Source: Halodesulfurarchaeum formicicum (lineage in GTDB: Archaea; Halobacteriota; Halobacteria; Halobacteriales; Halobacteriaceae). Taken from it: a stretch of DNA of 64,000 bases. The DNA lies in the NCBI RefSeq assembly GCF_001886955.1, contig NZ_CP016804.1, forward strand, positions 1,550,001 to 1,614,000. Reading direction: 5' to 3'. Positions 11,947 through 39,527 of this stretch are shown here, in pieces; the first letter of the stretch is position 1, and each line of letters opens with the position of its first letter. The translations under genes were made by a program, and so were the position numbers. The notes under the pieces were generated by a model, which was not told the origin of the DNA, did no database searches, and saw nothing but the letters and a program-made list of their open reading frames with translations.

Positions 11947-13380
11947 ATGGGAGACGACGGCCTATCCAGTGACGTCAAAAACCGGCTTTCGGAGCGCCGC
12001 GAGGCCAATCAGGGCGCGAGTGGCACCCTCATCCTCAGCGACGAGGAGGCCTACGTACACGACACGATCACGATTCGGGGGCTCAACCTCCCCCCAGACG
12101 CGGAACTCGACGTGTTCTGGCGGACCGTCGAGGGAAAGTGGGGGGTCCTGCAGGGCAACGAGGTCAACGGGGCCCAGTATCGCCCCCGGACCATCCACGC
12201 GCTCACGGCCCAGACCGACGACCAGGGGAAGTTCTCCGAGGAGTGGACGGTCCCCAAAGACTACGGCGGAGAGCACACGATCGAGGTCCGGAACGGCGAC
12301 GACGAGGCGATCGCGACGGCCGCCGTTCGCATCCGTCCGCACTTCGAAATCGAGGAGACCGAAGCCCCGCTCGGCGGCTTTTTCACCGTCACGGGATACG
12401 GCATCGGCCCGAACGTCGTCGAGAACAACTACCAGCTCACCTGGGACAACGGCATGGTCGGGTTCATCACCGGCGTGAAAAATCACGGCACGGCCACGGC
12501 TCGCATCCGTGCGGCCGGCCCCGTGGGGAGCCACCAGATCCAGGTCTGGCGCAACTATCGCGGCGTGCCGTTCATGCAGAACAACACCCAGTCCCCGTTC
12601 GGCGAGGTCGCCGCCGGCCGCCAGTACCAGTTCGACGTCGAGGTCACGGAACCGGACTCCGAACTCGGCGGCTACTGGGTCGAGGAACTGTTCGACGAGT
12701 CCCCACTCCAGGTACACGTCCCCGACCCCGAGGTCGAACACGACGCCACGATCGACATCACGCCCCAGTCCGGCCAGCCGGGCACCGACGCGGTCATCAC
12801 GGGCACGGACTTCCCCGCGAACACCGACGTCGAACTGGTCTGGCACTCACATTCCGGGCACCGGGTCAAGGACATCCCGATCCGACCCGAGCCACTGCCC
12901 GAAGTGTTGCCCACCGTCACCACCGATGAAGACGGCCGCTTCCAGGAGGAGATCACCATCCCACAGGACAAGGGCTCGACCAGGCCGATCGCCGCGAAGA
13001 TCGACGACCGGTCCGTCGCCACGACCGGCTTCATGATGCAGGCGGACATCCTGGAGGTGAGCCCACAGACCGCCGAACAGGGCGAGACGATCGAGATCGA
13101 ACTCGGCGGCATCGGGTGGCCGACCTACGAGAACGCCTACTACTTCGTCTATGACAACAAGCCCATCGGCTATGTCTGTGGGCTCGAGGCCCGGACCGCA
13201 AAGACCGAGATCACCGCCAGCGGCCAGCCGGGCTATCACTTCATCGACGTCTACCCCAGCTTCTTCGACGTGAAAGACGACGAGCCCAACTTCGAGTTGA
13301 CACCACACCTCTCCTATCTCGACAACCACCCGATCCGGCCGCTCCCGGGGCTACACATGACAATCGAGATCACCGAATAA
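11947..13380 (+). CDS. Unexported protein with ABAB Ig/IPT-like beta-sandwich domains
   Basis: I do not recognise this 477-residue protein as a named family. It shows four beta-rich modules arranged A-B-A-B. The A units (about 24-112 and 255-352) share a pattern ending F-x-E-E-W/I-T-V/I-P-x-D (KFSEEWTVPKDYGG, RFQEEITIPQDKGS). The B units (about 113-215 and 353-475) share YDN/WDNG-x-x-G-F/Y-I/V-x-G and a G-x-H-x-I/F-x-V strand. There are no signal peptide, Tat motif or membrane helices. An in-frame stop at 11890 excludes an upstream leader. It is 3 bases ahead of the ABC permease, so it is the first gene of that operon. A scaffold or ligand-binding role in the cytoplasm is conceivable; function is unknown. 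Confidence 0.7.
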   Translation: MGDDGLSSDVKNRLSERREANQGASGTLILSDEEAYVHDTITIRGLNLPPDAELDVFWRTVEGKWGVLQGNEVNGAQYRPRTIHALTAQTDDQGKFSEEWTVPKDYGGEHTIEVRNGDDEAIATAAVRIRPHFEIEETEAPLGGFFTVTGYGIGPNVVENNYQLTWDNGMVGFITGVKNHGTATARIRAAGPVGSHQIQVWRNYRGVPFMQNNTQSPFGEVAAGRQYQFDVEVTEPDSELGGYWVEELFDESPLQVHVPDPEVEHDATIDITPQSGQPGTDAVITGTDFPANTDVELVWHSHSGHRVKDIPIRPEPLPEVLPTVTTDEDGRFQEEITIPQDKGSTRPIAAKIDDRSVATTGFMMQADILEVSPQTAEQGETIEIELGGIGWPTYENAYYFVYDNKPIGYVCGLEARTAKTEITASGQPGYHFIDVYPSFFDVKDDEPNFELTPHLSYLDNHPIRPLPGLHMTIEITE

Positions 13381-13383
13381 CCG

Positions 13384-14160
13384 ATGGTCGGGCCGAAGCT
13401 GACTCGCACGCTCTCGCTTGCCCTTCCCATTGTCCTCTGGCAGGGAGCAGTCAGTGCCGGCCTCCTCGATCCGACCTTCGTCCCGCCACCGATAGAAATC
13501 GGGCAGCGAACACTCCATCTCCTCACGGAGGCGAACTTCCGCGGGCACGTCTATGCGACTCTGAGGCGGACGGGCCTGGCGGCCGGAAGTTCCGCGCTCT
13601 TTGGCATCCCGATCGGGTTCGCGATGGCCGCCAACAAGCGGATTCGGGCCGTCCTCTCGCCGGTGATCTCCGCGATCTTCGCGCTCCCGGTCATCGCGCT
13701 CTTCCCGCTTCTCATCCTCGTCATGGGGAGTACGGAGGCCGCGCTGGTGTTTACGGGCGCGGTCGGCTCCTTTATCCTGATCGTCTGGAACGCACGCAAC
13801 GGCGCGAAGGCCATCGACCCGGTCTACCTCGAAGTAGCCAGGGACAACGGCGCCAGATCCCGACTGGCCCAGCTCCGGGAAGTGTGGCTTCCGGGAGCCC
13901 TCCCGCTCGTGTTCGTCGGACTCCGACTCGGGCTGAGCATGTCCCTGTTGATCGTCACGGCCGTGGAGTTCGTCGCCGGAACCGACGGCCTGGGATACGT
14001 GCTCTGGATCTCCTGGCAGGCCTCGGTCCTGCCGGACCTCTATGCCACCCTGGTCGTTATCGGGGCCATCGGGGTCCTGGTCACGGACGGCCTGGCAACA
14101 CTGCGGACTCGGCTCATCCCCTGGGACCGGATGGGGGATCACACCATTATCAACCCCTGA
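13384..14160 (+). CDS. ABC permease, SsuC/TauC/NitT family (first of two)
   Basis: This 258-residue membrane protein has about six helices and the EAA-like cytoplasmic loop VARDNGARSRLAQLREVWLPGALP at about 145-168. That is the contact for the ATPase, as in aliphatic-sulfonate/taurine/nitrate importers. It lies 3 bases after the Ig-like gene and 2 bases before the methyltransferase. A second permease of the same family is at 17049. The pair may form a heterodimeric channel with the single ATPase at 16210. Confidence 0.9.
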   Translation: MVGPKLTRTLSLALPIVLWQGAVSAGLLDPTFVPPPIEIGQRTLHLLTEANFRGHVYATLRRTGLAAGSSALFGIPIGFAMAANKRIRAVLSPVISAIFALPVIALFPLLILVMGSTEAALVFTGAVGSFILIVWNARNGAKAIDPVYLEVARDNGARSRLAQLREVWLPGALPLVFVGLRLGLSMSLLIVTAVEFVAGTDGLGYVLWISWQASVLPDLYATLVVIGAIGVLVTDGLATLRTRLIPWDRMGDHTIINP

Positions 14161-14162
14161 CC

Positions 14163-14885
14163 ATGGCCGCACCTCGAATCCAGATCCTGCCAACCCACAG
14201 TGAACAGTTCGTGCAAACGTTTGCTCCCGAGCCGGATGCGGTCCAGGAAGAGATGACAGCCCTGGCCGAGGAACGCGGGGACCGGTTCCCCGGCGAAGCC
14301 TCGTTCCCGACCGTGGGCCACACCGTCGGCGGATGGCTCCACCAACTGGCCAGTCGCCCCGGAATCGACCGGGTCTTCGAATTCGGGTCGGGCTTTGGCT
14401 ATTCGGCTTACTGGCTGGCTCGGGCCCTCGATGGCTCGGGCGAACTCGTGTTGACCGAACGCGATCAGGACGAGTTGGACCTCGCGAGAGAGTTCGTGGA
14501 ACGGGGCGAGTTTCGGGCGTCGATCCGGTTCGAGCAGGGCGATGCCCGGTCGATTTTCGAGCGAACGACGGGGGACTTCGACCTGGTCCTGCTCGATCAC
14601 AAAAACGACGAGTATCCGGCGGCGTTCGAGACCGTGGCCGATCGCCTCTCAACGGGTGGGCTCCTCGTGGCGGACAACGTCATGACCGCAGCGATCATCG
14701 AGACGGAACCGCTTCTGGCGGGCCTGCAGAACGGAACGCTTTCAGCCGATACCAACGCGCACACGCGCGGCGTTTTCGAGTTCCTCCAGGCGGTCCGCAC
14801 GGAGCCACGGTTCCAGACCCAACTGCTCCCGATCGGTGGCGGAGTGGCCGTTAGCCGTCACGGCGGCGAAATCGGGGACGAGTAG
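14163..14885 (+). CDS. Class I SAM-dependent O-methyltransferase-like protein
   Basis: The 240-residue protein has the SAM-binding loop VFEFGSGFGYSAYWLARAL at about residues 61-79, the acidic motif II (LTERD), and LVLLDHKNDEYPAAF with VADNVM as in the catechol-O-methyltransferase-like (methyltransf_3) group. The N-terminal HTVGGWLHQLA is also typical of that family. It sits inside the importer operon, so it may modify the imported compound or detoxify an intermediate. The substrate cannot be read from the sequence. The start at 14163 is two bases after the permease stop. Confidence 0.82.
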   Translation: MAAPRIQILPTHSEQFVQTFAPEPDAVQEEMTALAEERGDRFPGEASFPTVGHTVGGWLHQLASRPGIDRVFEFGSGFGYSAYWLARALDGSGELVLTERDQDELDLAREFVERGEFRASIRFEQGDARSIFERTTGDFDLVLLDHKNDEYPAAFETVADRLSTGGLLVADNVMTAAIIETEPLLAGLQNGTLSADTNAHTRGVFEFLQAVRTEPRFQTQLLPIGGGVAVSRHGGEIGDE

Positions 14886-15013
14886 CCCATCGGGCACCCG
14901 AAGATCCACCTTAAAGCGACCCGAGCAAATGGCTGTTCTTGAAGTGGGGGCGTGGAAAAAAGGCTGGAAAATGCAGGTGGATCGTTTCGGTCACGGGGAG
15001 ACTACCCACTGGC

Positions 15014-16201
15014 ATGGACGGACCCGTATCGGAATCAGTCGATAACAAGCGGAAGAGCCAGGGACTCTCGCGACGGGCGTACCTCGCCAGTGCCGGGGTC
15101 GCCACCGCGACAGCCCTCGGCGGCTGTCTCGGCGCGGTCGATGGCGGCCCCGAGAAAGTCACCTTCGGCACGCTCACGATCCCAGCCGTGGCAGAAGTGC
15201 TGATCGCCCGCGATCGCGGCTACTTCGAGGACCGAAATATCGAACTCGAAGTCAAGCGGATCCAGAGTGCCCCGAAGGCGACCCCACAACTTGCAAGCGG
15301 CGATCTGGACGTCGCCACCGGCTCGATCGGGGCCAGTCTCTTCAACTCCGTGGCCCAGGACATCGACATCCGGGTCGTCGCGGACCAGACCCAGTACTGG
15401 CCGGGCCAGCCCTCGGCGAACCGAATCTGGGCGCGTTCGGCAGCCGTTCCGGACACCGACTCGATCTACGACCTGCCCGGGGGGTTGACGATCGGCCTGC
15501 ACGGCTCGGGCAACGTCGACTCGTATGTCTGGGGCCGGATCCTCGCGCTGAACGACATGACCTGGGCGGACGTCTCGACCACCGAGGTCCTCTATACCAA
15601 CATGCCCGTGACGATGGCCGAGGGACAGATCGACGCCTGCGCGATTCCGGACCCGTTGGGGCTGCAGGTCGCCGACCAGGCGGACGCGACCCAACTGGGC
15701 TATGCCTCCATGGTCGCCCCACGGATGCAGATCGGGGCCTACCTGTTCGGCGGCCCATTTGTCGAGGAGCGCCCCGAGGTGGCGACTCGCTGGGTCGAGG
15801 CGTACCTCGAAGGCGTCCGAGAGTACTACGAACTCGGCGGGTTCCCGAGCGAGGAGGTCGCGACGATCGTCAGCGAGGCGTTCGACCTGCCCAAGGCGGC
15901 CATCCAGGCCTCGATCCCCTCCCTCCCACACAAGAACGGCCACCTCAACGCCGACAGCGTCGAGAACCAGCAGGCGTTCTACGCCTGTCGGGGCAACGTC
16001 GAGGAGACGGTGCCCGTCGAGGACGTGATCGACGAGACGTTCCTGGAGTCGGCCCTCGATACGGTCGGCCGACTCGATGATGAGGCCGCCAGGCCCGACG
16101 TGGAGACGATCGAACAGTGGGGCGAGAACGCACTGGCCCCCTATCCACCCGTGGGCGAGCGCCGAACCCCGAGTGAGTTCCCCACCGATTCGAGCTGTTA
16201 A
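15014..16201 (+). CDS. Tat-exported lipoprotein, NitT/TauT-type ABC substrate-binding protein
   Basis: The 395-residue protein begins with a Tat signal (LSRRAYLASAG) followed by a lipobox (LGGC), so it is exported folded and lipid-anchored. The mature part resembles SsuA/NMT1 binding proteins: LTIPAVAEVLIARDRGYFEDR near the start, LASGDLDVATGSIGAS, and LPGGLTIGLHGSGNVDSYVW. The start at 15014 was chosen because it gives a normal n-region. It pairs with the ATPase 8 bases downstream. Relatives bind sulfonates, nitrate, cyanate, thiamine precursors or aromatic acids, so the ligand cannot be assigned. Confidence 0.88.
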   Translation: MDGPVSESVDNKRKSQGLSRRAYLASAGVATATALGGCLGAVDGGPEKVTFGTLTIPAVAEVLIARDRGYFEDRNIELEVKRIQSAPKATPQLASGDLDVATGSIGASLFNSVAQDIDIRVVADQTQYWPGQPSANRIWARSAAVPDTDSIYDLPGGLTIGLHGSGNVDSYVWGRILALNDMTWADVSTTEVLYTNMPVTMAEGQIDACAIPDPLGLQVADQADATQLGYASMVAPRMQIGAYLFGGPFVEERPEVATRWVEAYLEGVREYYELGGFPSEEVATIVSEAFDLPKAAIQASIPSLPHKNGHLNADSVENQQAFYACRGNVEETVPVEDVIDETFLESALDTVGRLDDEAARPDVETIEQWGENALAPYPPVGERRTPSEFPTDSSC

Positions 16202-16209
16202 CCTGCCCG

Positions 16210-17052
16210 ATGATCCCACCCGAGAGCGCCCACAGCGACGGACCGACCCCGGCTACGGCCCAGCCGAAACCGGCCGAACAGGTCCGTATTCGTGTCGAAG
16301 GTCTGACGATGGCCTACCAGTCCAACGGCACGACCGTCCAGGCCCTCGACGGGATGGAGCTCTCGGTCCGGGACCGGGAGTTCTTCTGTCTGCTCGGGCC
16401 CTCCGGCTGTGGGAAATCCACGTTTCTCAGGGGACTCAGTGGACTACTCGAACCCGACACCGGCACGATCGAGATCGAGGAGTCCGCGGCTGACCGCCCC
16501 AAGTCCCGGCTCGTCTTTCAGGAGAAGGGGATCTTCCCCTGGAAGACGGTGCTGGAGAACGTGGCATTCGGGCTCAAGATGCGGGACGTGCCGACTCAGA
16601 AGCGCCGGGAGATCGCCCGGGAGTACATTCGAAAGGTGAACCTCGACGGGTTCGAGGACGCCTACCCCCATCAGCTATCGGGCGGCATGAAACAGCGGGT
16701 GGACATCGCCCGGGCCTTCGCCAACGATCCGGAGGTCCTGCTGATGGACGAGCCCTTCGGTGATCTGGACGCCCAGACCAAACGAGGGCTCCAGGCGGAG
16801 CTGATCCGGTTGTGGCGCGAACGGCCGAAGACAGTGGTGTATGTCACCCACGACATCGAGGAGGCCGTCCGCCTGGGCGATCGGCTCGGGGTCATGACCG
16901 ACCGGCCGGGACAGATCGCCGAGGTAATTGATGTCGACCTCGATCGACCACGGACCAGGGAAACCCTCGATTTCGCCCGGTTCGAGGCGCTCCAGAACCG
17001 TGTCTGGTCGATCCTCGATACGGTCGTCAACGACACGGCAGGCCAGGAATGA
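16210..17052 (+). CDS. ABC ATPase, SsuB/TauB/NitT family
   Basis: The 280-residue ATPase has Walker A GPSGCGKST (about residues 65-73), the Q-loop in LVFQEKGIFPWKTVLENV, the signature LSGGMKQRVDIARAF, Walker B VLLMDEPFGDLD and the switch His in YVTHDIEEAV. The FPWxTVxxNV segment is typical of the nitrate/sulfonate/taurine subfamily. The N-terminal 25 residues are an extra low-complexity tail. Its stop overlaps the second permease start by 4 bases (ATGA), so translation is coupled. It is the only ATPase in the operon and should serve both permeases. Confidence 0.92.
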   Translation: MIPPESAHSDGPTPATAQPKPAEQVRIRVEGLTMAYQSNGTTVQALDGMELSVRDREFFCLLGPSGCGKSTFLRGLSGLLEPDTGTIEIEESAADRPKSRLVFQEKGIFPWKTVLENVAFGLKMRDVPTQKRREIAREYIRKVNLDGFEDAYPHQLSGGMKQRVDIARAFANDPEVLLMDEPFGDLDAQTKRGLQAELIRLWRERPKTVVYVTHDIEEAVRLGDRLGVMTDRPGQIAEVIDVDLDRPRTRETLDFARFEALQNRVWSILDTVVNDTAGQE

Positions 17053-17816
17053 CGGCCGCTCGACGCTCTAGCAGCCGGCTCCTGTTGTTGCTGGGGCCGT
17101 TTGTAGCGCTGGGGGTCGTCTGGGAGGCCGGTGCGCGTGGCGGCGTGATCGATGCGCGTTTCTTCCCGCCGCCCACGGCCGTTCTCGGGCTGGCCGTCGA
17201 ACTGTACGTTCACGGGGACTTTCTGACCCATCTCCTCGCGAGCCTCCGGCGGGTCCTCCTCGGCGGGCTGCTGGGAACGGCGAGTGGAGTGACGATGGGA
17301 CTGCTCGCCGGTCGAAACGGCGGCGTACGGGCGATTCTCGACCCGCATCTCAGTGTGCTCTACCCGCTCCCGAAGATCGCCATCCTGCCGGTGATGTTCT
17401 CGATCTTCGGCGTGAGCGAGACGGCCCGGATCCTCACGATGGCACTCGCGGTGTTTCTCCTGGTGACGATCAACACCATGGACGCCGTGACACAGATCGA
17501 AGACCAGTACATCGCCGCGGCGAGGGACAACGGGGCCGGTCGCGTGGCCATCTACCGGGAGGTCGTCCTGCCCAGCATTCTCCCACAGGTCGCGAGCGGG
17601 TTGAGTCTCGGGCTCGGCATCGCCGTGGTCCTCCTGGTCATCATCGAGATGGTCGCGGCGGACAGCGGCCTGGGCTATGTGATCTGGACGTCCTGGCAGC
17701 AGTTCAAGATCCTGGAGCTGTACGTGGCCCTGTTCTCGATCAACGTGCTCGGCCTGGTCTTCGTCCACGGACCGGAGGAGATCGGCGACTGGCTCACTCC
17801 CTGGCAGCAGCAATAA
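17049..17816 (+). CDS. ABC permease, SsuC/TauC/NitT family (second of two)
   Basis: This 255-residue membrane protein has the same architecture as the permease at 13384, with about six helices and the ATPase-contact loop AARDNGAGRVAIYREVVLPS. Its sequence is clearly distinct, so this is an old duplication rather than a recent copy. The start overlaps the ATPase stop by 4 bases. The two permeases suggest a heterodimer, or alternatively two importers sharing one ATPase. Confidence 0.9.
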   Translation: MTAARRSSSRLLLLLGPFVALGVVWEAGARGGVIDARFFPPPTAVLGLAVELYVHGDFLTHLLASLRRVLLGGLLGTASGVTMGLLAGRNGGVRAILDPHLSVLYPLPKIAILPVMFSIFGVSETARILTMALAVFLLVTINTMDAVTQIEDQYIAAARDNGAGRVAIYREVVLPSILPQVASGLSLGLGIAVVLLVIIEMVAADSGLGYVIWTSWQQFKILELYVALFSINVLGLVFVHGPEEIGDWLTPWQQQ

Positions 17817-17835
17817 AACACGACCCAACACATCC

Positions 17836-18318
17836 ATGACACCCGACACAGACGACGATCGATCGAGTCTCGAATTCACGGACACCGTGCGAGCCGATAC
17901 GGACAAACAGACCCTCTGGGAGTTCATCTCCGATGCCCAGAACCTCGCGGACGTGGTTCCGGGGGCCAAAAATGTCACCAGACACACAGAACGGCGCTAT
18001 GCCCTCGAGATCGAGCGTGGGATCGGCCACGTCTCGGTCTCGCTCGACGGGGAGTTCGAACTCGTCGAGATGGACGAACCGGACTGGATCATCGCGGAGG
18101 GGGAGGCCTTTGACGCCACGACCGGCAGTACCTTCGACGTGCTCGCGGCGATGGAGATGCAGGAGACCGAAACCGGCGAAGTCGATCTCTCCTACGCGGC
18201 CGAACTGTTCTACACCGGCGGCGTCGCTAGCCTCGGTGCTCGACTCCTGAAGAAGTTCATCGAGGGCGACGTCGATCGATACTTCGAGAACGTAAAATCG
18301 CGGGTCGAAGTGGACTGA
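17836..18318 (+). CDS. CoxG-like SRPBCC-domain protein
   Basis: The 160-residue protein fits the carbon-monoxide-dehydrogenase subunit G (CoxG, PF06240) branch of the START/SRPBCC fold. It has the segment LWEFISDAQNLADVVPGAKNV and a C-terminal helix ARLLKKFIEGDVDRYFENVK. CoxG proteins are small hydrophobic-pocket proteins, best known near molybdenum hydroxylases, where they help membrane association. No such hydroxylase is in the window, so its partner here is unknown. It is the last gene of the importer operon, 19 bases after the second permease, and ends 11 bases from the convergent lipoprotein gene. Confidence 0.78.
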   Translation: MTPDTDDDRSSLEFTDTVRADTDKQTLWEFISDAQNLADVVPGAKNVTRHTERRYALEIERGIGHVSVSLDGEFELVEMDEPDWIIAEGEAFDATTGSTFDVLAAMEMQETETGEVDLSYAAELFYTGGVASLGARLLKKFIEGDVDRYFENVKSRVEVD

Positions 18319-18329
18319 GGCCGAGTGGC

Positions 18330-19322
18330 TTACACGACCGTGAACTCGTTGGCGACGTGGGCAGTGGCCCCGACCTCGCCGGAGCTAACATCGTCGTCGG
18401 CGGGCACGAGTTCGACGGTGTACGTGTAACTGCCCGACTCGGCGTCCTCGGGGATGTAGAAGGTCGCGTTCCAGTTGAGATCCTCGGTGGGCTCGCCCTC
18501 GTCGTCAATGCCGGCCCATTCCAGGTCGAGGGTCTCGCCGAAGCCGTCGATAGTAATCGTCGCGGACTCGATGCCCGCGATGACGTCCTCCTGGTCGCCG
18601 TCGGCTGGCCCGACCGGGTTCCCGGTCCGTCCCTCGTAGACGCCGATGTCGAAGCCGACCATCATCCCGGGCGCGAACTGTCGACTCGGCTGACACGAGG
18701 AGATGAACTCGTTGTCGCCGTAGCCGTCCATCCCCGCCGAGCCAGCGTAGACGTCATCAGTGATGACGTAGTTCCGCGGATCGGTGTACTCGATAACCGT
18801 AAAGGAGCTCTCCAGAATGCCGACCCGCTGGAACTCGGCGTCGCCGTCGGTGACCTCGACGGTGTAGGTGATCGTCCCGGGGGAGACATCCTCGGGGATG
18901 GCCCAGCTCCCACTCCACTCGTCAGCGGGATGTTCCTCGTCGTCCCCACTCCAGGCCAGCTCGACCGAGCCGTGCCCATCGATGTTGACGACGACCGATT
19001 CGAGTTCGTCGTTCCCCAGGATCTCGCCCGTTTCGGGATCGTATACACCGATCTTGAAGACCGGGTGCATGCCCGGCACGAACATCCGGGAGGGCGAACA
19101 GGCCTGTGCGAAGCCGGCGTTCTCCGGAACGTACGACGAACTGACGATGATGTCGTCGGTGACGACGTAGTCTTCCGGCTCGGGTTCCGCAGTGGTGGTC
19201 GGTTCGCCGTTGCCGTCCGTACAGCCGGCGAGACTGACCGTCGCGAAACCGGCGGCCGTTCCAGCGACGAACTTCCGGCGCGAGAGGTTAGATCCGATGC
19301 GCGCGTTTCTATCAGGTTCCAT
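18330..19322 (-). CDS. Tat lipoprotein with two repeated Cys-containing beta domains
   Basis: This 330-residue protein is not a family I can name. It has a Tat signal (LSRRKFVAGTAAG) and a lipobox (SLAGC), so it is anchored outside the membrane. The mature part is two repeats of about 130 residues. Each starts with YVVTDD/YVITDD and has one conserved Cys in C-x-P-S-R-x-F-x-P-G-M (CSPSRMFVPGM, CQPSRQFAPGM). Next comes F-x-I-G-V-Y-x-x-x-T-G and then W-x-x-x-x-x-I-P-E-D-x-x-x-G (WSGSWAIPEDVSPG, WNATFYIPEDAESG). The last motif resembles one in the unexported protein at 11947. The ATG at 19322 was chosen; a start at 19340 is possible. The single Cys per repeat could bind metal or haem, or pair with the other. 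Confidence 0.72.
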   Translation of the reverse strand: MEPDRNARIGSNLSRRKFVAGTAAGFATVSLAGCTDGNGEPTTTAEPEPEDYVVTDDIIVSSSYVPENAGFAQACSPSRMFVPGMHPVFKIGVYDPETGEILGNDELESVVVNIDGHGSVELAWSGDDEEHPADEWSGSWAIPEDVSPGTITYTVEVTDGDAEFQRVGILESSFTVIEYTDPRNYVITDDVYAGSAGMDGYGDNEFISSCQPSRQFAPGMMVGFDIGVYEGRTGNPVGPADGDQEDVIAGIESATITIDGFGETLDLEWAGIDDEGEPTEDLNWNATFYIPEDAESGSYTYTVELVPADDDVSSGEVGATAHVANEFTVV

Positions 19323-19526: not shown

Positions 19527-20618
19527 TCAGTGCCCTGTCGGTTCGGACTCCTCCAGGCCGAGGTCCTGGTGTGTGGTCGGGCCCGGGACCGGTTCGACTT
19601 CGACCCCTTCCGGCTCGTCGCCGACGTAGATCACGTTCGGATCCGAGACCTCCGAACGGGCCTTGAACGTCTCGGACTCGTCGTAGTCTTCGAGGTACTG
19701 GTTCGGCGCGCTCTCGGGGTCGTTGAGGTCCCCGAAGTGAATCGCGTCGACCGGACAGGCCTCCTCACAGGCGGTCGTACCGCGGAGTTCGTCGTCCCAC
19801 TCGCGGTGGATGCAGAAGGTACACTTGCTGCAGGAGCCCTCCGGCGGCGTACCGGCGAGCCAGTGGCCCTCCGCGTCCCGGCGCTGGCCCTCGAACGGGC
19901 CGTCCAGGTACTCGGGGACGCCGGTCCCGACAAACGAGTTCACGTGATACGGGCAGGCGACCTCACAGTACTTGCAGCCCAGACAGGTGTCATAATCACA
20001 GACCGTCCGGCCGTTCTCGGTCTTGAACCGGGAGTTGTTCGGACAGACCTCGATACACGGGGCGTCCTCACAGTGCTGACAGGGTCGCTGCAGGGAGTCA
20101 CAGTCCGTGGGCCCATCGTACTCCTCGTCGGCCCGCTGATAGCGGTGGACCTCCATCCAGAAGTGGCCCTCCGGCGTGTGGTTCTCCTCCTTGCAGGCCT
20201 CCACACAGGAGAGACACTTGATGCAGGTTTCCGTGTCCAGCACCATCCCGCGCTGGACGGAACTGCCCGAATCGGACTGCGCAGCGGCGTTGTTCGAAGA
20301 CACGCCCGCGCCCACGGCCGCGGCTCCCACAGCGGCCACACCGGCGGCTTTCAGCACGGATCGCCGCGAGGCCTGGTCCATGACCGAGGGGGTACCCGGC
20401 ATCGAAGCGCCGGCCGTGCCGCCGGTGAGGTCCGTGCCGAACTCCTCGGCCACGTCCTCGGCGTACCGGTCCTCGAATTCGGCCCGGGAGAGTTCACCCG
20501 CCGAGACCCGGCGGGCGTCCGTGGCCATCTGTTTCCCGAGTGTCTCGTCTGCGTCGACGTCCGCGAGGATGTCCCCGACCACGTCGTCGATGTCGTCTGT
20601 GTCTATCTTGTCAGTCAT
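19527..20618 (-). CDS. Tat-exported four-cluster Fe-S protein (DmsB/TtrB/PhsB-like)
   Basis: The 363-residue protein carries four 4Fe-4S cluster motifs of the DMSO-reductase electron-transfer subunit type. Examples are C132-C135-C138-C142, C180-C183-C188-C192 and C212-C215-C218-C222, with a fourth set including C263-C266-C269, C284 and C288. It therefore should wire a membrane quinone protein to an enzyme outside the cell. The Tat motif (SRRSVLK, Arg85-Arg86) is not at the N-terminus but follows about 80 acidic residues. This may be a proofreading or regulatory pre-region, or a later Met (80) may be the true start. It is 6 bases downstream of the NrfD gene. Confidence 0.85.
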   Translation of the reverse strand: MTDKIDTDDIDDVVGDILADVDADETLGKQMATDARRVSAGELSRAEFEDRYAEDVAEEFGTDLTGGTAGASMPGTPSVMDQASRRSVLKAAGVAAVGAAAVGAGVSSNNAAAQSDSGSSVQRGMVLDTETCIKCLSCVEACKEENHTPEGHFWMEVHRYQRADEEYDGPTDCDSLQRPCQHCEDAPCIEVCPNNSRFKTENGRTVCDYDTCLGCKYCEVACPYHVNSFVGTGVPEYLDGPFEGQRRDAEGHWLAGTPPEGSCSKCTFCIHREWDDELRGTTACEEACPVDAIHFGDLNDPESAPNQYLEDYDESETFKARSEVSDPNVIYVGDEPEGVEVEPVPGPTTHQDLGLEESEPTGH

Positions 20619-20624
20619 GAGTTA

Positions 20625-21620
20625 TCACGCACCGATGATCGGCACGTTCAGCGCGCCGAAGATGATCGTGAGCCGAAGCAGGAGGCCACCGACGACCACG
20701 AGGCCGAACTTGAGGACGTAGGCCCCACGGACCCGGCGCAGGGTTTTCGCGTTCCCGTGGAGGTCGACCCGCCGCTCGACGAGGATCAGGGCCGCCGAGA
20801 GGACCAGTGGCGCCACCAGTCCGACACCGACCACGCCGCCCCAGAACAGGAGCCAGCCGTCCTGCATGATGTACTGGACGGTTTCGACGGCGGTCGAGTT
20901 GCCGTTCTGCAGTGTCACCAGCAGGACCGCGAGCACACCCATCTCGGCGAGGATGATCGCGTCGTCGGCGAGGCTGAACGTCTCCACGCCAGTTTCGATG
21001 ATGCCCTGTGTCAGGGTGGTTAACCCGAAGACGGCCGCGATGCCGATCGAGAGGCTACTGGTCAGGAACAGAAGCGGGAGCCAGGTCGGGTCCCACAGCG
21101 GAACGACCGCCCCGACCGCGCTGATCAGCAGTGCCGTGTAGACCGCCAGCAGGATGCCGATGGCGATTCCGAAGGCGGTGATTCCCCGTCGAACCGGTTC
21201 GGAGGGGCGAGTTACCCTGGCGAGGGTGTCGATCGGTCCGAGGGTCACCGCAAAGCCGTTCTCGCGACCGAAGCCCAGCCAGAGAGCCTGCACGAAGGCG
21301 AGGAGCGTGAACAGGACGATGACCCAGATCCCGATCGTCATCCAGGACTGGGAGTTCGTGAACAGCCAGAACTTCAGCACGTTCAGCGGTTCGCCGAGGT
21401 GTGAGACCAGCAAGACCCCACCGACGGCGATCGCCCCGACCGCGATCACCATGCTCCAGCGGGCCGTGGCGAAGTAGGAGTCCCGACGTTCCGGGTGTCT
21501 GGTACTGAGGAGGTCGGCGACGGCCCCGGCGACGTACGCCCCGCCGGCCAGGCCGCCCAGGAACAGATAGATCCCGATCGAAAGCCCCCAGAACTCGGCG
21601 GGCAGGAGCGGATTTACCAT
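20625..21620 (-). CDS. NrfD/PsrC-family membrane quinone-interacting subunit
   Basis: This 331-residue, largely hydrophobic protein has about eight or nine membrane helices. It shows the family start LPAEFWGLSIGIYLFLGGLAGG and the periplasmic-side segment GEPLNVLKFW. NrfD/PsrC proteins exchange electrons with menaquinone and pass them to the adjacent Fe-S subunit. The ATG at 21620 (MVNPLLP) was chosen over one at 21650. It is cotranscribed with the Fe-S gene downstream. A molybdopterin subunit would normally complete a Psr/Ttr/Phs enzyme, and none is next to it. Confidence 0.88.
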   Translation of the reverse strand: MVNPLLPAEFWGLSIGIYLFLGGLAGGAYVAGAVADLLSTRHPERRDSYFATARWSMVIAVGAIAVGGVLLVSHLGEPLNVLKFWLFTNSQSWMTIGIWVIVLFTLLAFVQALWLGFGRENGFAVTLGPIDTLARVTRPSEPVRRGITAFGIAIGILLAVYTALLISAVGAVVPLWDPTWLPLLFLTSSLSIGIAAVFGLTTLTQGIIETGVETFSLADDAIILAEMGVLAVLLVTLQNGNSTAVETVQYIMQDGWLLFWGGVVGVGLVAPLVLSAALILVERRVDLHGNAKTLRRVRGAYVLKFGLVVVGGLLLRLTIIFGALNVPIIGA

Positions 21621-21751
21621 GGATATCCCTCCGCGTACGCCCGGGGACAACCGGGATGTGCGGTACTCGTGTGTGTGAACGAGACGGTCGAATCCATATC
21701 CACTGGTAGTTTACGGTCGGGCATAGGGGTGGTCGTTAATTTTGCAGAGTT

Positions 21752-21759
21752 TTTTATAC
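21752..21759 (-). promoter_or_regulatory. Candidate TATA element for NrfD/Fe-S operon
   Basis: Read in the gene's direction, tataaaaa lies about 130 bases before the ATG at 21620. It predicts a start near 21727 and a leader of about 100 bases. The surrounding gap 21621-21809 shows no gene. Confidence 0.4.
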
Positions 21760-21809
21760 CGGAGCGACACGGTACCACGGCAGTCTGGCGGCCCCGGCCG
21801 AATTTGAAC

Positions 21810-22673
21810 CTAGACTGCGTCCGCGTCGTCTTTCACGCCAGTCGTGATCTCGAAGTCCTGCTTGGGCGAACCCACACACGTGAGGACATAGCCCGCTTCG
21901 ACCTGTTCGTCGCTGAGATACTGGTTGCCGTCGTGGTCGACGTACTCGCTACCAGCACCCGGAACCTCCGAGGTACACTCCCCACAGACGCCATGCTCAC
22001 ACTCGTATGGCACGTCCAGGTCGTTATCCAGGGCCGAGTCGAGCAGCGTCTGGGTGGCCGGCACATCGGTCGTGGCACCCTGAACGGTCCAGTCGATCGA
22101 GAAGGACTCAACGTCGGCCGCGGTGGTCGTCTCCTCGGTTTCCGCACCGTCGGGCGAGTAGGCGTCAGCCGCGTCCTGCTTGCCGGTCTCGATGGAGAAA
22201 TCCTGTTTCGGGGAGGCGACACAGGGAAGCACGAACCCGCCGGCGATCTGCTCGTCGCTCAGATAGTCGGCACCGGTGTGCTCGACGTAGTCGGTCCCGT
22301 CGCCGGGAACCGTGGAGGTACAGACCCCACAGATCCCCTGTTCGCACTGGTATGGAACGTCGAGCCCTTCGTCGATGGCCACGTCGAGCAGGACCTCGTT
22401 GCTGGCGACCGCAGTCGTCGCCCCCTGGACAGTCCACTCGATGTCGAATGTCTCGACGGGACCGGTGGTCGTCCCCTCGCCACCCTCGGTGGTTGGTACT
22501 GGAGTGGGATCGTCCGCGCGCGGGCCGGTCTCGTCGTCCCCCAGGATGCCAAGACAGCCAGCCGTCGAGAGCAGGCCCGCGCTGCCGAGCGCGGCCAAAA
22601 GATTTCTTCGATTGAGGTGTTCACCGGCCGGGGTCGGTTGTCTGTCGCCGTCGGAACGCTGTTGCTCCGCCAT
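21810..22673 (-). CDS. Tat lipoprotein with two tandem plant-type [2Fe-2S] ferredoxin domains
   Basis: The 287-residue protein has a Tat signal (NRRNLLAALG, about 21-30) and a lipobox Cys at 40 (STAGC). A Gly/Thr-rich linker is followed by two homologous ferredoxin domains. The cluster cysteines are C110-C115-C118-C151 and C225-C230-C233-C266, with identical spacing (C-x4-C-x2-C-x32-C). The first is CEQGICGVC and the second CEHGVCGEC. Haloarchaeal 2Fe-2S ferredoxins are normally cytoplasmic, so folded export and lipid anchoring put this one on the outer face. It is transcribed in the same direction as the NrfD/Fe-S pair, but a 190-base gap suggests its own promoter. It is a likely electron carrier to an unknown acceptor. 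Confidence 0.88.
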   Translation of the reverse strand: MAEQQRSDGDRQPTPAGEHLNRRNLLAALGSAGLLSTAGCLGILGDDETGPRADDPTPVPTTEGGEGTTTGPVETFDIEWTVQGATTAVASNEVLLDVAIDEGLDVPYQCEQGICGVCTSTVPGDGTDYVEHTGADYLSDEQIAGGFVLPCVASPKQDFSIETGKQDAADAYSPDGAETEETTTAADVESFSIDWTVQGATTDVPATQTLLDSALDNDLDVPYECEHGVCGECTSEVPGAGSEYVDHDGNQYLSDEQVEAGYVLTCVGSPKQDFEITTGVKDDADAV

Positions 22674-22742: not shown

Positions 22743-23300
22743 TCAGTCAAGATCACGGAACGCGGACTCGAAGTCCGATTCGGTCTCGAGGGCCCCTTCC
22801 AGATCCCCTTCGAGAGTCTCGATCTCGGCTTTCAATTCGGCGTACTCCTCGCTGGCCTCCAGTTCCGAGGCCGGTTTCGAGGACTCCAGTGCGGCCTTCT
22901 TCGAGGTCAGCGCGTAGTACTCCTGCATCGCGTCGTCGTACTCCTTCCGGTCGAGCAGGGACTCGATAGCCGACTCCAGGCCCTCCCGGTCGATGGGCTT
23001 CGTGAGATAATCGTCAAAGCCCATCTCGATGACATCGAAGTCCGGGTCGACGGCCGTGACCATCGCGACCCGGCAGTCATAGCCCCGGTCCCGGATCTCC
23101 TCGAGGACCTCGTCCCCGGACAGCCCCGGCATGCGACGGTCGAGGAGGACCACGTCGACGGACTCGTCGAGTTCCGCAAGCGCCTCCTCCCCGCTGTTCG
23201 CCATCCGCACGTCGTACGCTGCCTCGAGCCAGACGCCGAAGAGTTCGGTGATGTTCACCTCGTCGTCGACGATCAGGACGGTCGGCGTAGCTTCACTCAT
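22743..23300 (-). CDS. HalX-type response regulator
   Basis: The 185-residue protein has a receiver domain at about 8-120 with Asp12/Asp13 and phospho-acceptor Asp54 (VVLLDRRMPG). Thr/Lys follow in MVTAVD and DDYLTKP. A helical C-terminal HalX domain (about 125-180, ELEASEEYAELKAEIE) is found only in haloarchaea. The start at 23300 (MSEATPTVLIVDDE) was chosen; a frame from 23453 adds unrelated residues. No histidine kinase is adjacent, so the partner must be elsewhere. It may respond to a signal relevant to the redox genes beside it (inference). Confidence 0.9.
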   Translation of the reverse strand: MSEATPTVLIVDDEVNITELFGVWLEAAYDVRMANSGEEALAELDESVDVVLLDRRMPGLSGDEVLEEIRDRGYDCRVAMVTAVDPDFDVIEMGFDDYLTKPIDREGLESAIESLLDRKEYDDAMQEYYALTSKKAALESSKPASELEASEEYAELKAEIETLEGDLEGALETESDFESAFRDLD

Positions 23301-23536
23301 GTGTGCTTGTCCCCGCGCCCACATTCCGCGTTTCTTCCTGGCCCCTTCGCAGTGCTCCCAGCCGAAACTGCGATATCCGACGTCTCCGAAACCGGCCTGC
23401 GGGTCAGTACCATCTCGATATCTGCCTTTGGTGGAGGGGTATAAAAAAGCCACCGGGTACGTATCGGCAGGTTGGGAATCCCTTCGGGGTCGACAATCGC
23501 CGAAGGCTTATACCGACCGGGCCGTCGACAGCACGT

Positions 23537-32122: not shown

Positions 32123-34099
32123 CTACAGGAACTCCGTCTCCGCAGCCCGCTGAGAGCGACAGTCCGGACAGACCTCCAGATCGAGTGCTTCGAGTGCCGC
32201 CTCGTCCAGTTGGGCCTCCATCTCTTCGATACCCGCCCGAGAGGCAAACGGCTCGCCGCACACCCGGCACTCGACCATCTCTTTTTCGACGACGACGTCC
32301 CGTTCCGGGACGGCCCCGTTCTCCAGGGGCACCCGTGGACTGACGTCGATCACGTCCTCCGGACAGGCCGTCTCGCAATGGCCACAGCCGACACAGGCCT
32401 CGGGATCGAAGTGCAGTTGCCCCTCGGTCTGTTCGAGCGCCCCGGTCGGGCACACGTCGTGACAGGTAGTACAGAGCGTGCAACCCGACTCCTCGACCGT
32501 GACGGTCCCCGAGCCTGGCGCCGCGACCATGCTCGCATTGCTGCCGTGCCCGGCCGCGAGTGCCACACTCGCATCGAGACCGAGGGCGTGACGGGAGTCG
32601 GTCCGCACGGAACCGGTCTCGACGGCGTCGATCGAATCGGCAACGAGACCGTCCATTGCCCGGGCAAGCGCGTCGGGGTCAGCAGTGTTTGCCACCGCCA
32701 CCCGCTCCCCGAGGCCGAGATCGTCGAGGGCCAGGTTCGCCTGCCGGACCGCATCCTCGACGGGTTCGGTCGCCCGGTCGGGGTCACTCGCCAGCAACAC
32801 GCCATCGGCCCCCAGCGCCACGGCATAGATCGCCACCGCGTCCGAGACCGAGAGCACGTTCGGAAGCACGATGGGGATAACTGGCGGCACCGACCGAGAA
32901 CTGAGGGTGGCCCGCACGGCCGGTTCGATCGCCTCGCTCACGAAGACCACGCCGAACGGTGTGGCACTGCCACCCCACGGCAGACTGGACCCGGCGGTCG
33001 CGTCGGCCACCGGACCGATCGCCGCCTCGACGAAGTCCGCCGTCGTCGCCACGTCGTGAGCCCGGGTGGGTTCGATGGACGCGGTCGGACAGACCGAGAC
33101 GCAGGTCCCACACGCGACACAGCGGTCGGGTTCGATGCTGACGCCCCCGTCGTGGGCGAGTGAGATCGAGATGGCGTCGTTCGGACAGGCCTCCTCGCAG
33201 GCCGAACAGCCCTCGTTGCCCGCTGTGCCGACGGCACAGGTGCTGTGATCGACTGTCACCTCCGGTCGGGCTCGCATCCAGGCCGCCCGGTTCACGGCCC
33301 CGGCGACGCCAGTTCGAATCGTGTGCACCCAGCGGTCCGCTGCCAGGGGGCCCTGGTGATTCGGCCAGACGACCTGGCTCGCTTCTACCTGTTCGACGAG
33401 TGGCTCATCGGCCGGCCGGATCGCGTCGGCCGGACAGACCGCCGGCTCCACGGTGTCCGCTGTGACCTGGACCGGTACGTCAGTCGTCGCCTCGGGATAG
33501 CGCCGAAGACAGCGCCCACAGCCCGTGCAGTCCTCGGTCACCCACGTTTCGAGTTGCACTTCGTAGCCGCCACCCACACGCTCCAGGGCGGTTGCAGTCC
33601 CGCGCCGCACAGTCACCGAATCGGGAAGTGACGTGCCCGCCAGGTCCTGGTGATCGGCGATCAGCGTCACGTCGACGTTTCCGGCCAGGTCCCGGGCGAC
33701 CAGCGGGTCTCCGACGACGACCACGTGCTCGCCCGACGGGGCGGGATCGAGATCGATCTCCGGCCGGATCGCGAGCTGTCGGACGGCCGCGTTCGCGGCG
33801 CCAGCCACCACGGCCGTCCCGACCGCCGAGTCGACGGACGCACCGATGAAGGGGCTCACGCGGTCCGTTCGGTAGCCGGCTTCCTCGAGGGCCTCCAGGA
33901 GTTCGGTGACGACCGGCCCGTCGCCGGCGACGAAGAGGACTGCGTCCGTGTCAGCGTCCTCGATTCGCTCGGCGATGGCCTCGCGATGGTCCGCGACCGC
34001 GCTCGTGAGAATCGCCTCCTCGACGTCGATCGCCTCGGCGACGGCGTTGCGGTCGATGTCGGCCGTCCCGCGACAATCACTGATGACGGCGACAGTCAT
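32123..34099 (-). CDS. HdrA/MvhD-like cytoplasmic polyferredoxin of the fdh operon
   Basis: The 658-residue protein has no export signal. It shows ferredoxin-like cysteine groups near residue 190 (CTGCGRC), 300-345 (CSACEEACPNDA, CVACGTCVSVCPTAS) and 545-590 (CTLCTTCHDVCPTGA, CVGCGHCETACPEDV). The section around 385-500 resembles the MvhD/hydrogenase delta fold (VLPNVLSVSDAVAIYAVALG) but lacks the cysteines of true MvhD. The C-terminus has a zinc-ribbon pair (CRVCGEPF, CPDC). The start overlaps the chaperone stop by 4 bases. Such proteins move electrons between cytoplasmic partners. Here it could link formate oxidation to ferredoxin/NAD(P) pools or act in cofactor maturation. Confidence 0.78.
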   Translation of the reverse strand: MTVAVISDCRGTADIDRNAVAEAIDVEEAILTSAVADHREAIAERIEDADTDAVLFVAGDGPVVTELLEALEEAGYRTDRVSPFIGASVDSAVGTAVVAGAANAAVRQLAIRPEIDLDPAPSGEHVVVVGDPLVARDLAGNVDVTLIADHQDLAGTSLPDSVTVRRGTATALERVGGGYEVQLETWVTEDCTGCGRCLRRYPEATTDVPVQVTADTVEPAVCPADAIRPADEPLVEQVEASQVVWPNHQGPLAADRWVHTIRTGVAGAVNRAAWMRARPEVTVDHSTCAVGTAGNEGCSACEEACPNDAISISLAHDGGVSIEPDRCVACGTCVSVCPTASIEPTRAHDVATTADFVEAAIGPVADATAGSSLPWGGSATPFGVVFVSEAIEPAVRATLSSRSVPPVIPIVLPNVLSVSDAVAIYAVALGADGVLLASDPDRATEPVEDAVRQANLALDDLGLGERVAVANTADPDALARAMDGLVADSIDAVETGSVRTDSRHALGLDASVALAAGHGSNASMVAAPGSGTVTVEESGCTLCTTCHDVCPTGALEQTEGQLHFDPEACVGCGHCETACPEDVIDVSPRVPLENGAVPERDVVVEKEMVECRVCGEPFASRAGIEEMEAQLDEAALEALDLEVCPDCRSQRAAETEFL

Positions 34100-34689
34100 T
34101 GACGGACCCCCTGCCGGCTGGCGTCGAAAGCCACGACTCCTGCGACGAGGTCCGCGATCGCCTCGTAGAACGGTTCATCCGTCTGCTCGTGGATGTCCTG
34201 GGCGAGGTCATCGAACCAGTCCCCGTGCTCGCGGAGGAAGGGGGCCGTCCGGTCCCCGTCGGTCGCCGTCAGCTCCCGCAGCACCGCGAGTTCGACGGCC
34301 GCGTGGTCGGCCTCCTCCTTGCGATCCGGAGCGGAAGCGATCCCGAGGGCCTGGTAGGTCTCTTTGACGGCCGCGAGCGGTTCCCCGAGGTAGTCCCCGG
34401 CGTAGTAGGACTCGTGGATCTGGAGCTTGGGGCGTGGGCCGATGAAGAGTCGGGTGAACTCCGACGCGAGTCGGTCGGCCTCCGCGGCCGGATCCTCGAC
34501 GGTCTCGCCCCAGGCATCGAGGCCTTCGAGGCCGGCGGCCAACCGGTCGTTCGGAGCGACCCCGGGATCGGGTAGCGGCCCCGAGGCGAGGGCGGCGACA
34601 GTCTCCTCGTCCGGTGGATCCGCGAACACACCCGCGAGCAGGTCATAGAGCTGTGCCATCGTTGCGTCGTCGGTGTCCTCCGTACTCAT
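34096..34689 (-). CDS. TorD/DmsD-family redox-enzyme chaperone
   Basis: The 197-residue all-helical protein has the family features: YDLLAGVFADPPDEETVAAL near the start, FTRLFIGPRPKLQIHESYY in the middle (a version of the E-x-x-R-x-F-x-G region), and DHAAVELAVL. TorD proteins bind the Tat signal and apo-enzyme of molybdopterin oxidoreductases until cofactor insertion. Its client should be the catalytic subunit at 36502. It is in the same operon, 39 bases after the cytochrome b gene. Confidence 0.88.
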   Translation of the reverse strand: MSTEDTDDATMAQLYDLLAGVFADPPDEETVAALASGPLPDPGVAPNDRLAAGLEGLDAWGETVEDPAAEADRLASEFTRLFIGPRPKLQIHESYYAGDYLGEPLAAVKETYQALGIASAPDRKEEADHAAVELAVLRELTATDGDRTAPFLREHGDWFDDLAQDIHEQTDEPFYEAIADLVAGVVAFDASRQGVRQ

Positions 34690-34728
34690 TGTCTTGAAGT
34701 TCGCATTTGAAAGTGAAAAGTTCGCCTA

Positions 34729-35652
34729 TCAGTCCCCGAATCGGAGCGTGATGCCGTAGAGCAGGGCCACCAGTCCGACCAGAATCACGATGACCACCAG
34801 GTTGAACCCGACGGTCCAGAATATCCCGGCCGGCCCCTCGAGGATCGTCTCGGGACGCTCCAGGAGATAGAGAGTCTCCTGGGTCCCCGGAATGGGAGCC
34901 AGGATCCGGTCGATCAGGACCCCCGAGTAGACGACGGCGAACACGAACAGCACCGCGAACACACCGAGGACCTGGATGAACCGGTCGCCGCTGCCGCCGT
35001 CCGAGCGGGTTTGGCCGGCATCCACCCAGCCCGCCCACTCCTCTCGGGCCCGGTCGAGGGAGACTCGACCGGTGAAGATCGAGGTGTCGAGCGGGAACTG
35101 GAGGAGATGGGTGTCATAGAGGTGGAAGGTCACGCCCATCAGGAGCGTGAAGGCAAAGACCACGTGGAGGTCACTCGCGACCAGGAAGGCGGGGCGATAA
35201 CGGAGCAACAGCCCGGGGAACGTGAGCACGAGTCCCGTCGCCGTGAGGACGGTGAGTTCCACGGCGATGATCAGCACCTCGGATTTCTGAATCCAGGTGT
35301 ACTTCCCGGGGCGTGGCTCTGGGCCGCGACCAAGGATGTGGTAGTTTACATACGTGATCAGCTCCCGGATCGTACTCGGGCCGGGAAGCCACTTGGTCGG
35401 GAAGTCCCCAGTCGCCAGGCCGGTGAGCGCAAAGACGAGATAGTAGAGCAGGGTGACGAACAGGGCCACACCGGCGATGATGTGGATCAGGATGATGGAC
35501 TCGTTGCCCAGCAGGGACACGATCCATCCGACCTGGCCGCCGAAGGTGATCGCGACCCCGGTCAGGAAGAGGATCAGGATGGCCGCGGCCATCAGGAAGT
35601 GAACGTACACCTGGACGGCCGAGAACCGGGAGATCTCCTCGGAGCCGCTCAT
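34729..35652 (-). CDS. Cytochrome b-type formate dehydrogenase gamma subunit (FdnI-like)
   Basis: The 307-residue protein has about five to six membrane helices with histidines in helices positioned for two b haems (VQVYVHFLMA, IILIHIIAGVAL, VASDLHVVFAF, VTFHLYDTH). The loop GPSTIRELITYVNYHILGRG is typical of the FdnI/cytochrome b561 group. It should pass electrons between the exported dehydrogenase and menaquinone. The start overlaps the stop of the small membrane subunit by 4 bases. Confidence 0.85.
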   Translation of the reverse strand: MSGSEEISRFSAVQVYVHFLMAAAILILFLTGVAITFGGQVGWIVSLLGNESIILIHIIAGVALFVTLLYYLVFALTGLATGDFPTKWLPGPSTIRELITYVNYHILGRGPEPRPGKYTWIQKSEVLIIAVELTVLTATGLVLTFPGLLLRYRPAFLVASDLHVVFAFTLLMGVTFHLYDTHLLQFPLDTSIFTGRVSLDRAREEWAGWVDAGQTRSDGGSGDRFIQVLGVFAVLFVFAVVYSGVLIDRILAPIPGTQETLYLLERPETILEGPAGIFWTVGFNLVVIVILVGLVALLYGITLRFGD

Positions 35653-35936
35653 CGATCCACACCTCCCGGGTGCGTGCGCAGCGAGAGCAGCAGCAACACC
35701 GAGACGGTCGCGACCAGGCCGGTGAGGTACACGCCGAGCAGGCCACGGAGCAACACCCAGTTGCCAGACATGGACTCGTACTGGGAGACCCCTTCACCAA
35801 CGAGCGCCAGCGTGTCGCGCATCCACACGCCGGTCGTGAGCCCCGGCGACAGGCCGTTCAGCCAGGCCAGTACTCCGGCGGCGATCAGGACCGCGGCGAC
35901 TGCGGCGACAGCGTGACGGACGTAATCTGCGTTCAT
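35649..35936 (-). CDS. Small two-helix membrane subunit of the fdh operon
   Basis: The 95-residue protein has two hydrophobic segments (about 7-27 and 62-86), joined by a polar, probably extracellular stretch with no cysteines. It is coupled to the cytochrome b gene by a 4-base overlap and follows the Fe-S subunit by 14 bases. I do not recognise a family. It may be a structural subunit of the membrane complex. Confidence 0.7.
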   Translation of the reverse strand: MNADYVRHAVAAVAAVLIAAGVLAWLNGLSPGLTTGVWMRDTLALVGEGVSQYESMSGNWVLLRGLLGVYLTGLVATVSVLLLLSLRTHPGGVDR

Positions 35937-35950
35937 CGATCGATTACGGG

Positions 35951-36505
35951 TTAGTCACTTCCCGTTCCGAACACGATGGCTGCCTCGCTCTCGGTGAACA
36001 TCGTGTCGCTCCCGCGGCGACGCATCTCGTCGGAGATCTCACTCGGGGTGCCAAAGACCAGCGCGTCGGTGGGACAGGTCTCCACGCAAGCCGGGTCCTT
36101 GCCCTCCTCCAGGCGGTCGACACAGGTGGTGCACTTGTCCATGATCCCCGAGCCACCGGCCGTCTCCTCCTCGCTGGGGTACTGTGGCGCCCCGAAGGGA
36201 CACGCCCAGGAGCAGTACGAACAGCCGATGCAGAGATCCTTGTCCACCTGCACCAGGTCGTGTTCGTCCCGGTGTAACGCGTCCGTGGGACAGACGTCGA
36301 TACAGGGAGCCTCCGCGCAGTTGTAACACTGCATGGGCGTGTGGGACTCCCCGCCGGAGTACCGGGTGCCTTCCTGGCCCTCGTTGTGGGTCACGACCTC
36401 GATACGCTCCTCGGTGTGGCCGATGTCCCACTCGACCTTGCAGGCGACCTCACAGCCGCCACAATCGATACAGCGGTCAGTGTCGGGCACGACGCGTTTC
36501 GTCAT
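35951..36505 (-). CDS. Formate-dehydrogenase-type Fe-S subunit (four 4Fe-4S clusters)
   Basis: The 184-residue protein has the four cysteine groups of DMSO-reductase-family beta subunits: CIDCGGCEVACK, CYNCAEAPCIDVCPTDAL, CIGCSYCSWACPFGAP and CTTCVDRLEEGKDPACVETCP. It lacks its own signal peptide, so it is probably carried through Tat with the catalytic subunit. It also lacks the membrane helix seen in E. coli FdnH. The start overlaps the catalytic gene stop by 4 bases. Confidence 0.9.
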   Translation of the reverse strand: MTKRVVPDTDRCIDCGGCEVACKVEWDIGHTEERIEVVTHNEGQEGTRYSGGESHTPMQCYNCAEAPCIDVCPTDALHRDEHDLVQVDKDLCIGCSYCSWACPFGAPQYPSEEETAGGSGIMDKCTTCVDRLEEGKDPACVETCPTDALVFGTPSEISDEMRRRGSDTMFTESEAAIVFGTGSD

Positions 36506-39447: not shown

Positions 39448-39487
39448 TAACATACAGATAGTGGGTTCCCATGGGGGTAGTACACGT

Positions 39488-39527
39488 CCCAATATACGGA
39501 GGGCTATTTACATAGTGGAGTATTGGG
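39488..39527. promoter_or_regulatory. Inverted repeat in fdh promoter region
   Basis: CCCAATA at 39488-39494 and TATTGGG at 39521-39527 are perfect inverted arms around an AT-rich centre (ctatttacatag, itself nearly symmetric). This lies 41-80 bases upstream of the fdhA start. It is a candidate operator or promoter for oxygen or substrate control. Confidence 0.4.

Follow-up and report, generated by a model that had tools for sequence, protein, structure and literature searches.

A predicted exported tandem [2Fe-2S] lipoprotein linked to an NrfD/iron–sulfur module in Halodesulfurarchaeum formicicum and other haloarchaea

Halocyanin is the usual answer to the question of which carrier works at the outer face of the membrane in aerobic haloarchaea, and its potential is much higher than that expected of the kind of carrier described here. 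Many haloarchaea lack c-type cytochromes. Plant-type [2Fe-2S] clusters are usually of low potential. The question taken up here is how electrons move at the outer face during haloarchaeal sulfur respiration. No c-type cytochromes are reported from the genomes studied of natronoarchaeal sulfur reducers, including AArc-Sl (PMC6176080), and Halodesulfurarchaeum formicicum HSR6 is an anaerobe that grows on formate or hydrogen with sulfur compounds (PMC5437934). No earlier description of exported or tandem haloarchaeal ferredoxins was found in the literature searched, which left most subscription journals outside.

The window examined here is a stretch of 64,000 nt of the HSR6 genome (NZ_CP016804.1, positions 1,550,001–1,614,000), lying in a single replicon of 2,085,946 bp. 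One of its genes, FD2, encodes a protein with two [2Fe-2S] domains that is predicted to be a Tat lipoprotein. The features of FD2 and its neighbours are as follows.

21810..22673, minus strand: FD2, tandem [2Fe-2S] lipoprotein, 287 aa (ATG 22673, stop 21810)
22605..22610, minus strand: twin arginine R22-R23 of FD2, putative Tat signal (invariant in 13 aligned homologues)
22554..22556, minus strand: lipobox cysteine C40 (AGC) of FD2, putative lipidation site (invariant in 13 aligned homologues)
22164..22451, minus strand: Fer2 domain 1, about residues 75–170, C110/115/118/151 (profile matches and alignment)
21828..22100, minus strand: Fer2 domain 2, about residues 192–282, C225/230/233/266 (profile matches and alignment)
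20625..21620, minus strand: NrfD-type membrane subunit with a putative menaquinone site, ATG 21620 (PF03916, 2.7e-31; about 8–10 predicted TM segments)
19527..20618, minus strand: FES, Tat-exported DsrO/NrfC-like protein (Ferredoxin_N; RR at residue 85)
18330..19322, minus strand: LIPO, Tat lipoprotein with two macroglobulin/Ig-like repeats, accessory (AlphaFold2 and Foldseek)
17836..18318, plus strand: CoxG-like SRPBCC protein, convergent, pairs with LIPO (PF06240, 1.6e-19)
11947..17816, plus strand: convergent, co-conserved operon (profile matches and neighbourhood comparison)
22743..23453, minus strand: HalX response regulator, on the upstream side of FD2 at a distance of 69 bp (shared only within the genus)

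The N-terminus of FD2 (MAEQQRSDGDRQPTPAGEHLNRRNLLAALGSAGLLSTAGCLG) consists of a twin arginine (motif NRRNLL), a hydrophobic core (residues 25–43) and a lipobox (A38-G39-C40), in that order, which are the sequence motifs of a haloarchaeal Tat lipoprotein. A threonine- and acid-rich linker separates the lipobox from the first [2Fe-2S] domain. FD2 has nine cysteines and no others (40, 110, 115, 118, 151, 225, 230, 233 and 266), and those of domains 1 and 2 share the spacing C-X4-C-X2-C-X32-C. The preliminary description of this DNA had placed a Tat signal and lipobox ahead of two ferredoxin domains with equally spaced cysteines, and every position that it gave agrees with ours. Two stretches of FD2 match both Pfam Fer2 (PF00111, 6.4e-25, 87.3 bits against a cut-off of 21) and NCBIfam fdx_plant (TIGR02008, 114.4 bits, cut-off 81.15), and solved plant and cyanobacterial ferredoxins match both halves, down to 5e-14. 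With 57 D+E against 9 K+R, FD2 is very acidic, as expected for a halophile. AlphaFold2 modelling from a 13-row alignment gave a mean pLDDT of 42, which is too low for a cluster-to-cluster distance.

Sampling covered 392 genomes at the level of the order and 391 at that of the class, and recovered 20 distinct two-cluster proteins, that of the window included, in six families (f1, f4, f5, f7, f8 and f15). A search for exported tandem proteins had been proposed in the preliminary description, with intracellular homologues or lost ligands named as grounds for giving the reading up; all 20 proteins retain the twin arginine, the lipobox and both cluster motifs. Across 13 aligned homologues (35–95% identity), neither RR22-23 nor A38-G39-C40 nor any of the eight ligands varies, and the motifs recur in every two-cluster protein, so the set is not due to chance. 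Among 383 sampled genomes of the phylum there was no additional tandem homologue at E ≤ 1e-45, a plasmid collection held no match to FD2, and a contig search with the single FD2 sequence found nothing. Tandem-like matches in cyanobacteria, which made up most of the hits of an alignment-based contig search, turned out to be separate genes, and no single cyanobacterial ORF with two clusters was found. Within the genus, HTSR1 and HSR6 belong to one species, as their ANI is 98.6%, while G022 is a different species.

Several tandem paralogues may occur in one genome (four in G412, three in G428). In a tree of individual domains, domains 1 and 2 of the tandem proteins intermix, and the starred branches force at least 7–8 changes of label, which rules out one ancient duplication of the domain without later exchange. 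The tree implies either repeated doubling or gene conversion that homogenised the copies, and fits both. If the domain was doubled repeatedly, this suggests that having two clusters matters. The G428 counterpart of one tandem gene of G412 (G412b) is a long ORF with one recognisable cluster (L196:9805-12456), possibly decayed or frameshifted.

Haloarchaeal plant-type ferredoxins had been described in the preliminary account as normally cytoplasmic and single, which is only partly right, as it overlooks two kinds of single-cluster protein. Seven exported single-cluster [2Fe-2S] lipoproteins were seen in haloarchaea, and the tandem protein of G322 groups with them in the domain tree. The other kind is a very common protein of about 193 aa with one N-terminal membrane helix and neither RR nor lipobox. 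These membrane-helix ferredoxins (L010, L041, L035, L187 and others) have a GGGG-rich linker, and their function is apparently undescribed in the literature searched. They form one group adjoining the exported ferredoxins in the domain tree (support 87/75, not strong), where proteins such as L041 are the nearest outgroup to the exported family. They differ from FD2 in having one domain and an uncleaved helix, the flanking charges of which suggest a cytoplasmic domain. Two of the exported single-cluster lipoproteins (L078, L199) have EB_dh haem-protein lipoproteins within 10 kb. Tat lipoproteins of this ethylbenzene dehydrogenase type (L073:9570-11905, L199:7678-10013, L078:1-1255, L072:7308-9332) were observed near exported single- or tandem-cluster ferredoxins of other haloarchaea, and are possible terminal partners.

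Downstream of FD2, on the same strand, are genuine NrfD and FeS genes; the preliminary description had placed FD2 beside an NrfD module. FES has 19 cysteines, including four [4Fe-4S]-type sets. The 189 bp gap between FD2 and NrfD (21621–21809) contains a TATA-like stretch (GGTATAAAAAA), so that co-transcription is not assured, and NrfD-FES may be transcribed from a promoter other than that of FD2. The best matches of FES and NrfD are to DsrO, TtrB, NrfC and NrfD models, all below the equivalog cut-offs (DsrO, 144.9 against 200 bits; NrfC, 123.4 against 377.6 bits; NrfD, 91.6 against 347.6 bits), and the two proteins are therefore relatives, not members, of the Dsr, Ttr and Nrf systems.

The linkage between FD2 and these genes extends well beyond the window. 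When the tandem loci were sorted into 11 ortholog sets, nine had FES and NrfD, or a DsrP-like NrfD, near FD2. The order is FD2-FES-DsrP on one strand in L069, L189 and L193, and FES-DsrP-FD2 in L072, L192 and L195. Seven genomes were searched for FES homologues, and each of the 12 that scored at least 250 bits (one each in HSR6, G220, G047 and G199, and four each in G412 and G428) had a tandem FD2 no more than about 6 kb away and stood next to an NrfD- or DsrP-like quinone subunit. The homologues of 205 bits or less in these genomes were elsewhere. A second FES piece in G220, at 249285, is part of the same gene as the first. FD2 neighbourhoods make up on the order of 1% of the genomes, and so the linkage is not due to chance. 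The tandem ferredoxins of G322 and G412b have no FES or NrfD nearby, which counts against a role as carrier for this module.

The convergent operon (11947..17816) encodes a TIG-like protein, two ABC permeases, an O-methyltransferase-like ORF, an NMT1/SsuA-type binding lipoprotein and an ABC ATPase; four families conserve it along with the FD2 operon, in varying order. LIPO was modelled by AlphaFold2 at a pLDDT of 67, and Foldseek related the model to macroglobulin/Ig-like sandwiches; no match was found among the sequences of solved structures. With CoxG, it forms a separable set, which in genomes that lack FD2 accompanies other ABC importers. Such sets were observed in L212–L217 (compare 11947–18318 of the window), some with neighbours that by eye resemble UbiD or flavin reductases. 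The LIPO/CoxG/ABC module has the look of an importer of some organic, perhaps aromatic, compound. LIPO itself was considered as a terminal enzyme and rejected, given its predicted Ig-like fold, its occurrence without FD2 and the lack of a solved-structure match.

No molybdopterin subunit was found beside FD2, and queries from the MopB loci of HSR6 were unmatched in 18 related loci, a control that rests on seven of the nine queries, as those of L052 and L053 are probably wrong-frame ORFs. A catalytic molybdopterin partner of the Psr/CISM type was likewise sought in the FD2 loci searched, and none was found. HSR6 has nine PF00384 proteins, at least five of them with an RR signal at the start; the one nearest to FD2 is about 15 kb away, within the formate dehydrogenase cluster. 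That cluster (32123–39492) is membrane-bound, with a Tat catalytic subunit, an FeS subunit, a cytochrome b, a chaperone-like protein and a multi-FeS protein, and its content matches the formate dehydrogenase operon of PMC5437934. Halocyanin-type proteins (PF00127) are absent from the HSR6 genome, the same search being positive in the Haloferax volcanii control.

In our estimation, these observations make it fairly probable that FD2 works outside the cytoplasm as a one-electron carrier, serving an FeS/NrfD menaquinone module that stands alone. FD2 would leave the cell via Tat already folded, with both [2Fe-2S] clusters pre-built, be lipidated at C40 and stay anchored to the membrane's outer face. 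Since FD2 and FES both carry Tat signals, both would be placed outside, where FD2 would swap electrons with FES and its predicted four [4Fe-4S] clusters, and FES would pass them to or from menaquinone via NrfD (the DsrP-like NrfD in relatives). The module would be of the NrfCD/DsrOP type without a catalytic subunit of its own, with FD2 replacing the multihaem cytochrome of the Nrf and Dsr systems. Its position would be that of NrfB or DsrJ, a soluble or anchored carrier joining the quinone module to another partner, and its role that of multihaem cytochromes or blue-copper proteins elsewhere. The preliminary description had pictured a two-cluster wire on the cell surface; on the evidence of the genes, a carrier subunit acting together with FES/NrfD is more likely than a free-standing surface conductor.

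The potential of haloarchaeal ferredoxin is about that of NAD (PMC8305020), and menaquinone lies near −74 mV (PMC5437934). If the potential of FD2 is similar to that of haloarchaeal ferredoxin, its electrons would pass to menaquinone downhill, or electrons would be helped uphill by the proton-motive force, and uphill flow of this kind has been proposed for thiosulfate reductase (PMC5437934). Either electrons from FD2 would enter menaquinone, or NrfD/DsrP would spend proton-motive force to make electrons of low potential available outside, which would suit acceptors such as sulfur or polysulfide. Flow from menaquinol to FD2 would be uphill at a plant-type potential, and this counts against the carrier reading. 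More tentatively, and with some doubt on our part, the tandem lipoproteins may form an outer-face route free of cytochromes and copper in anaerobic haloarchaea, between the NrfD/DsrP module and a partner outside the cell, sulfur or polysulfide for instance. Along this route, a proton-motive-force-coupled NrfD/DsrP would handle low-potential electrons, and the lipoproteins would have been duplicated or homogenised several times.

FD2 could instead be a general low-potential shuttle at the surface, moving among exported oxidoreductases (Psr, Ttr, Dms, formate dehydrogenase) much as halocyanin does in aerobes. The multiple FD2 paralogues of G412 and G428 are compatible with this, as are the lack of halocyanin in HSR6 and the PF00384 proteins encoded elsewhere in that genome, but all except two of the paralogue groups have an FES/NrfD or DsrP of their own, which suggests dedicated pairs, and we consider a general shuttle unlikely. 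The co-conserved ABC/CoxG/TIG operon raises another reading, in which FD2-FES-NrfD, together with LIPO, CoxG, TIG and the NMT1/SsuA-type importer, would provide or withdraw electrons at an extracytoplasmic step in the handling of an organic compound that is imported. However, five FD2-FES-DsrP loci (L069, L189, L192, L193 and L195) lack the ABC set, and LIPO-CoxG-ABC sets exist without FD2, so the modules are separable; this reading appears less probable still.

It is very improbable that FD2 is a redox sensor or store, read out by the nearby HalX or HTH_10 regulators. HalX lies directly upstream of FD2 in Halodesulfurarchaeum, and HTH_10 regulators are near several tandem loci, but HalX is not kept outside the genus and the linkage of FD2 to FES/NrfD is far stronger.

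As a carrier for the FES/NrfD module, FD2 would be a rare case of a plant-type ferredoxin functioning outside the cell, and the conserved combination of an exported two-cluster ferredoxin with an NrfD/FeS module lacking a catalytic subunit offers a concrete alternative to halocyanin.

Compared with described systems, FD2 resembles the plant-type ferredoxins and haloarchaeal Fdx in profile fold family, four-cysteine motif and acidic halophilic composition, but differs from Fdx in having two domains per chain and a Tat/lipobox signal, and the exported family is far from cytosolic Fdx in the domain tree. Halocyanin has a similar proposed role, that of a membrane-anchored one-electron carrier at the outer face in haloarchaea, while its fold is unrelated and its metal different. 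The NrfABCD, DsrMKJOP and Psr-type complexes share with the FD2 locus an NrfD membrane subunit and an exported multi-[4Fe-4S] subunit; unlike them, the FD2 locus has a [2Fe-2S] lipoprotein where a catalytic subunit or haem carrier would otherwise be found alongside. The locus is a variation on plant-type ferredoxins and NrfD/FeS quinone modules rather than a new category.
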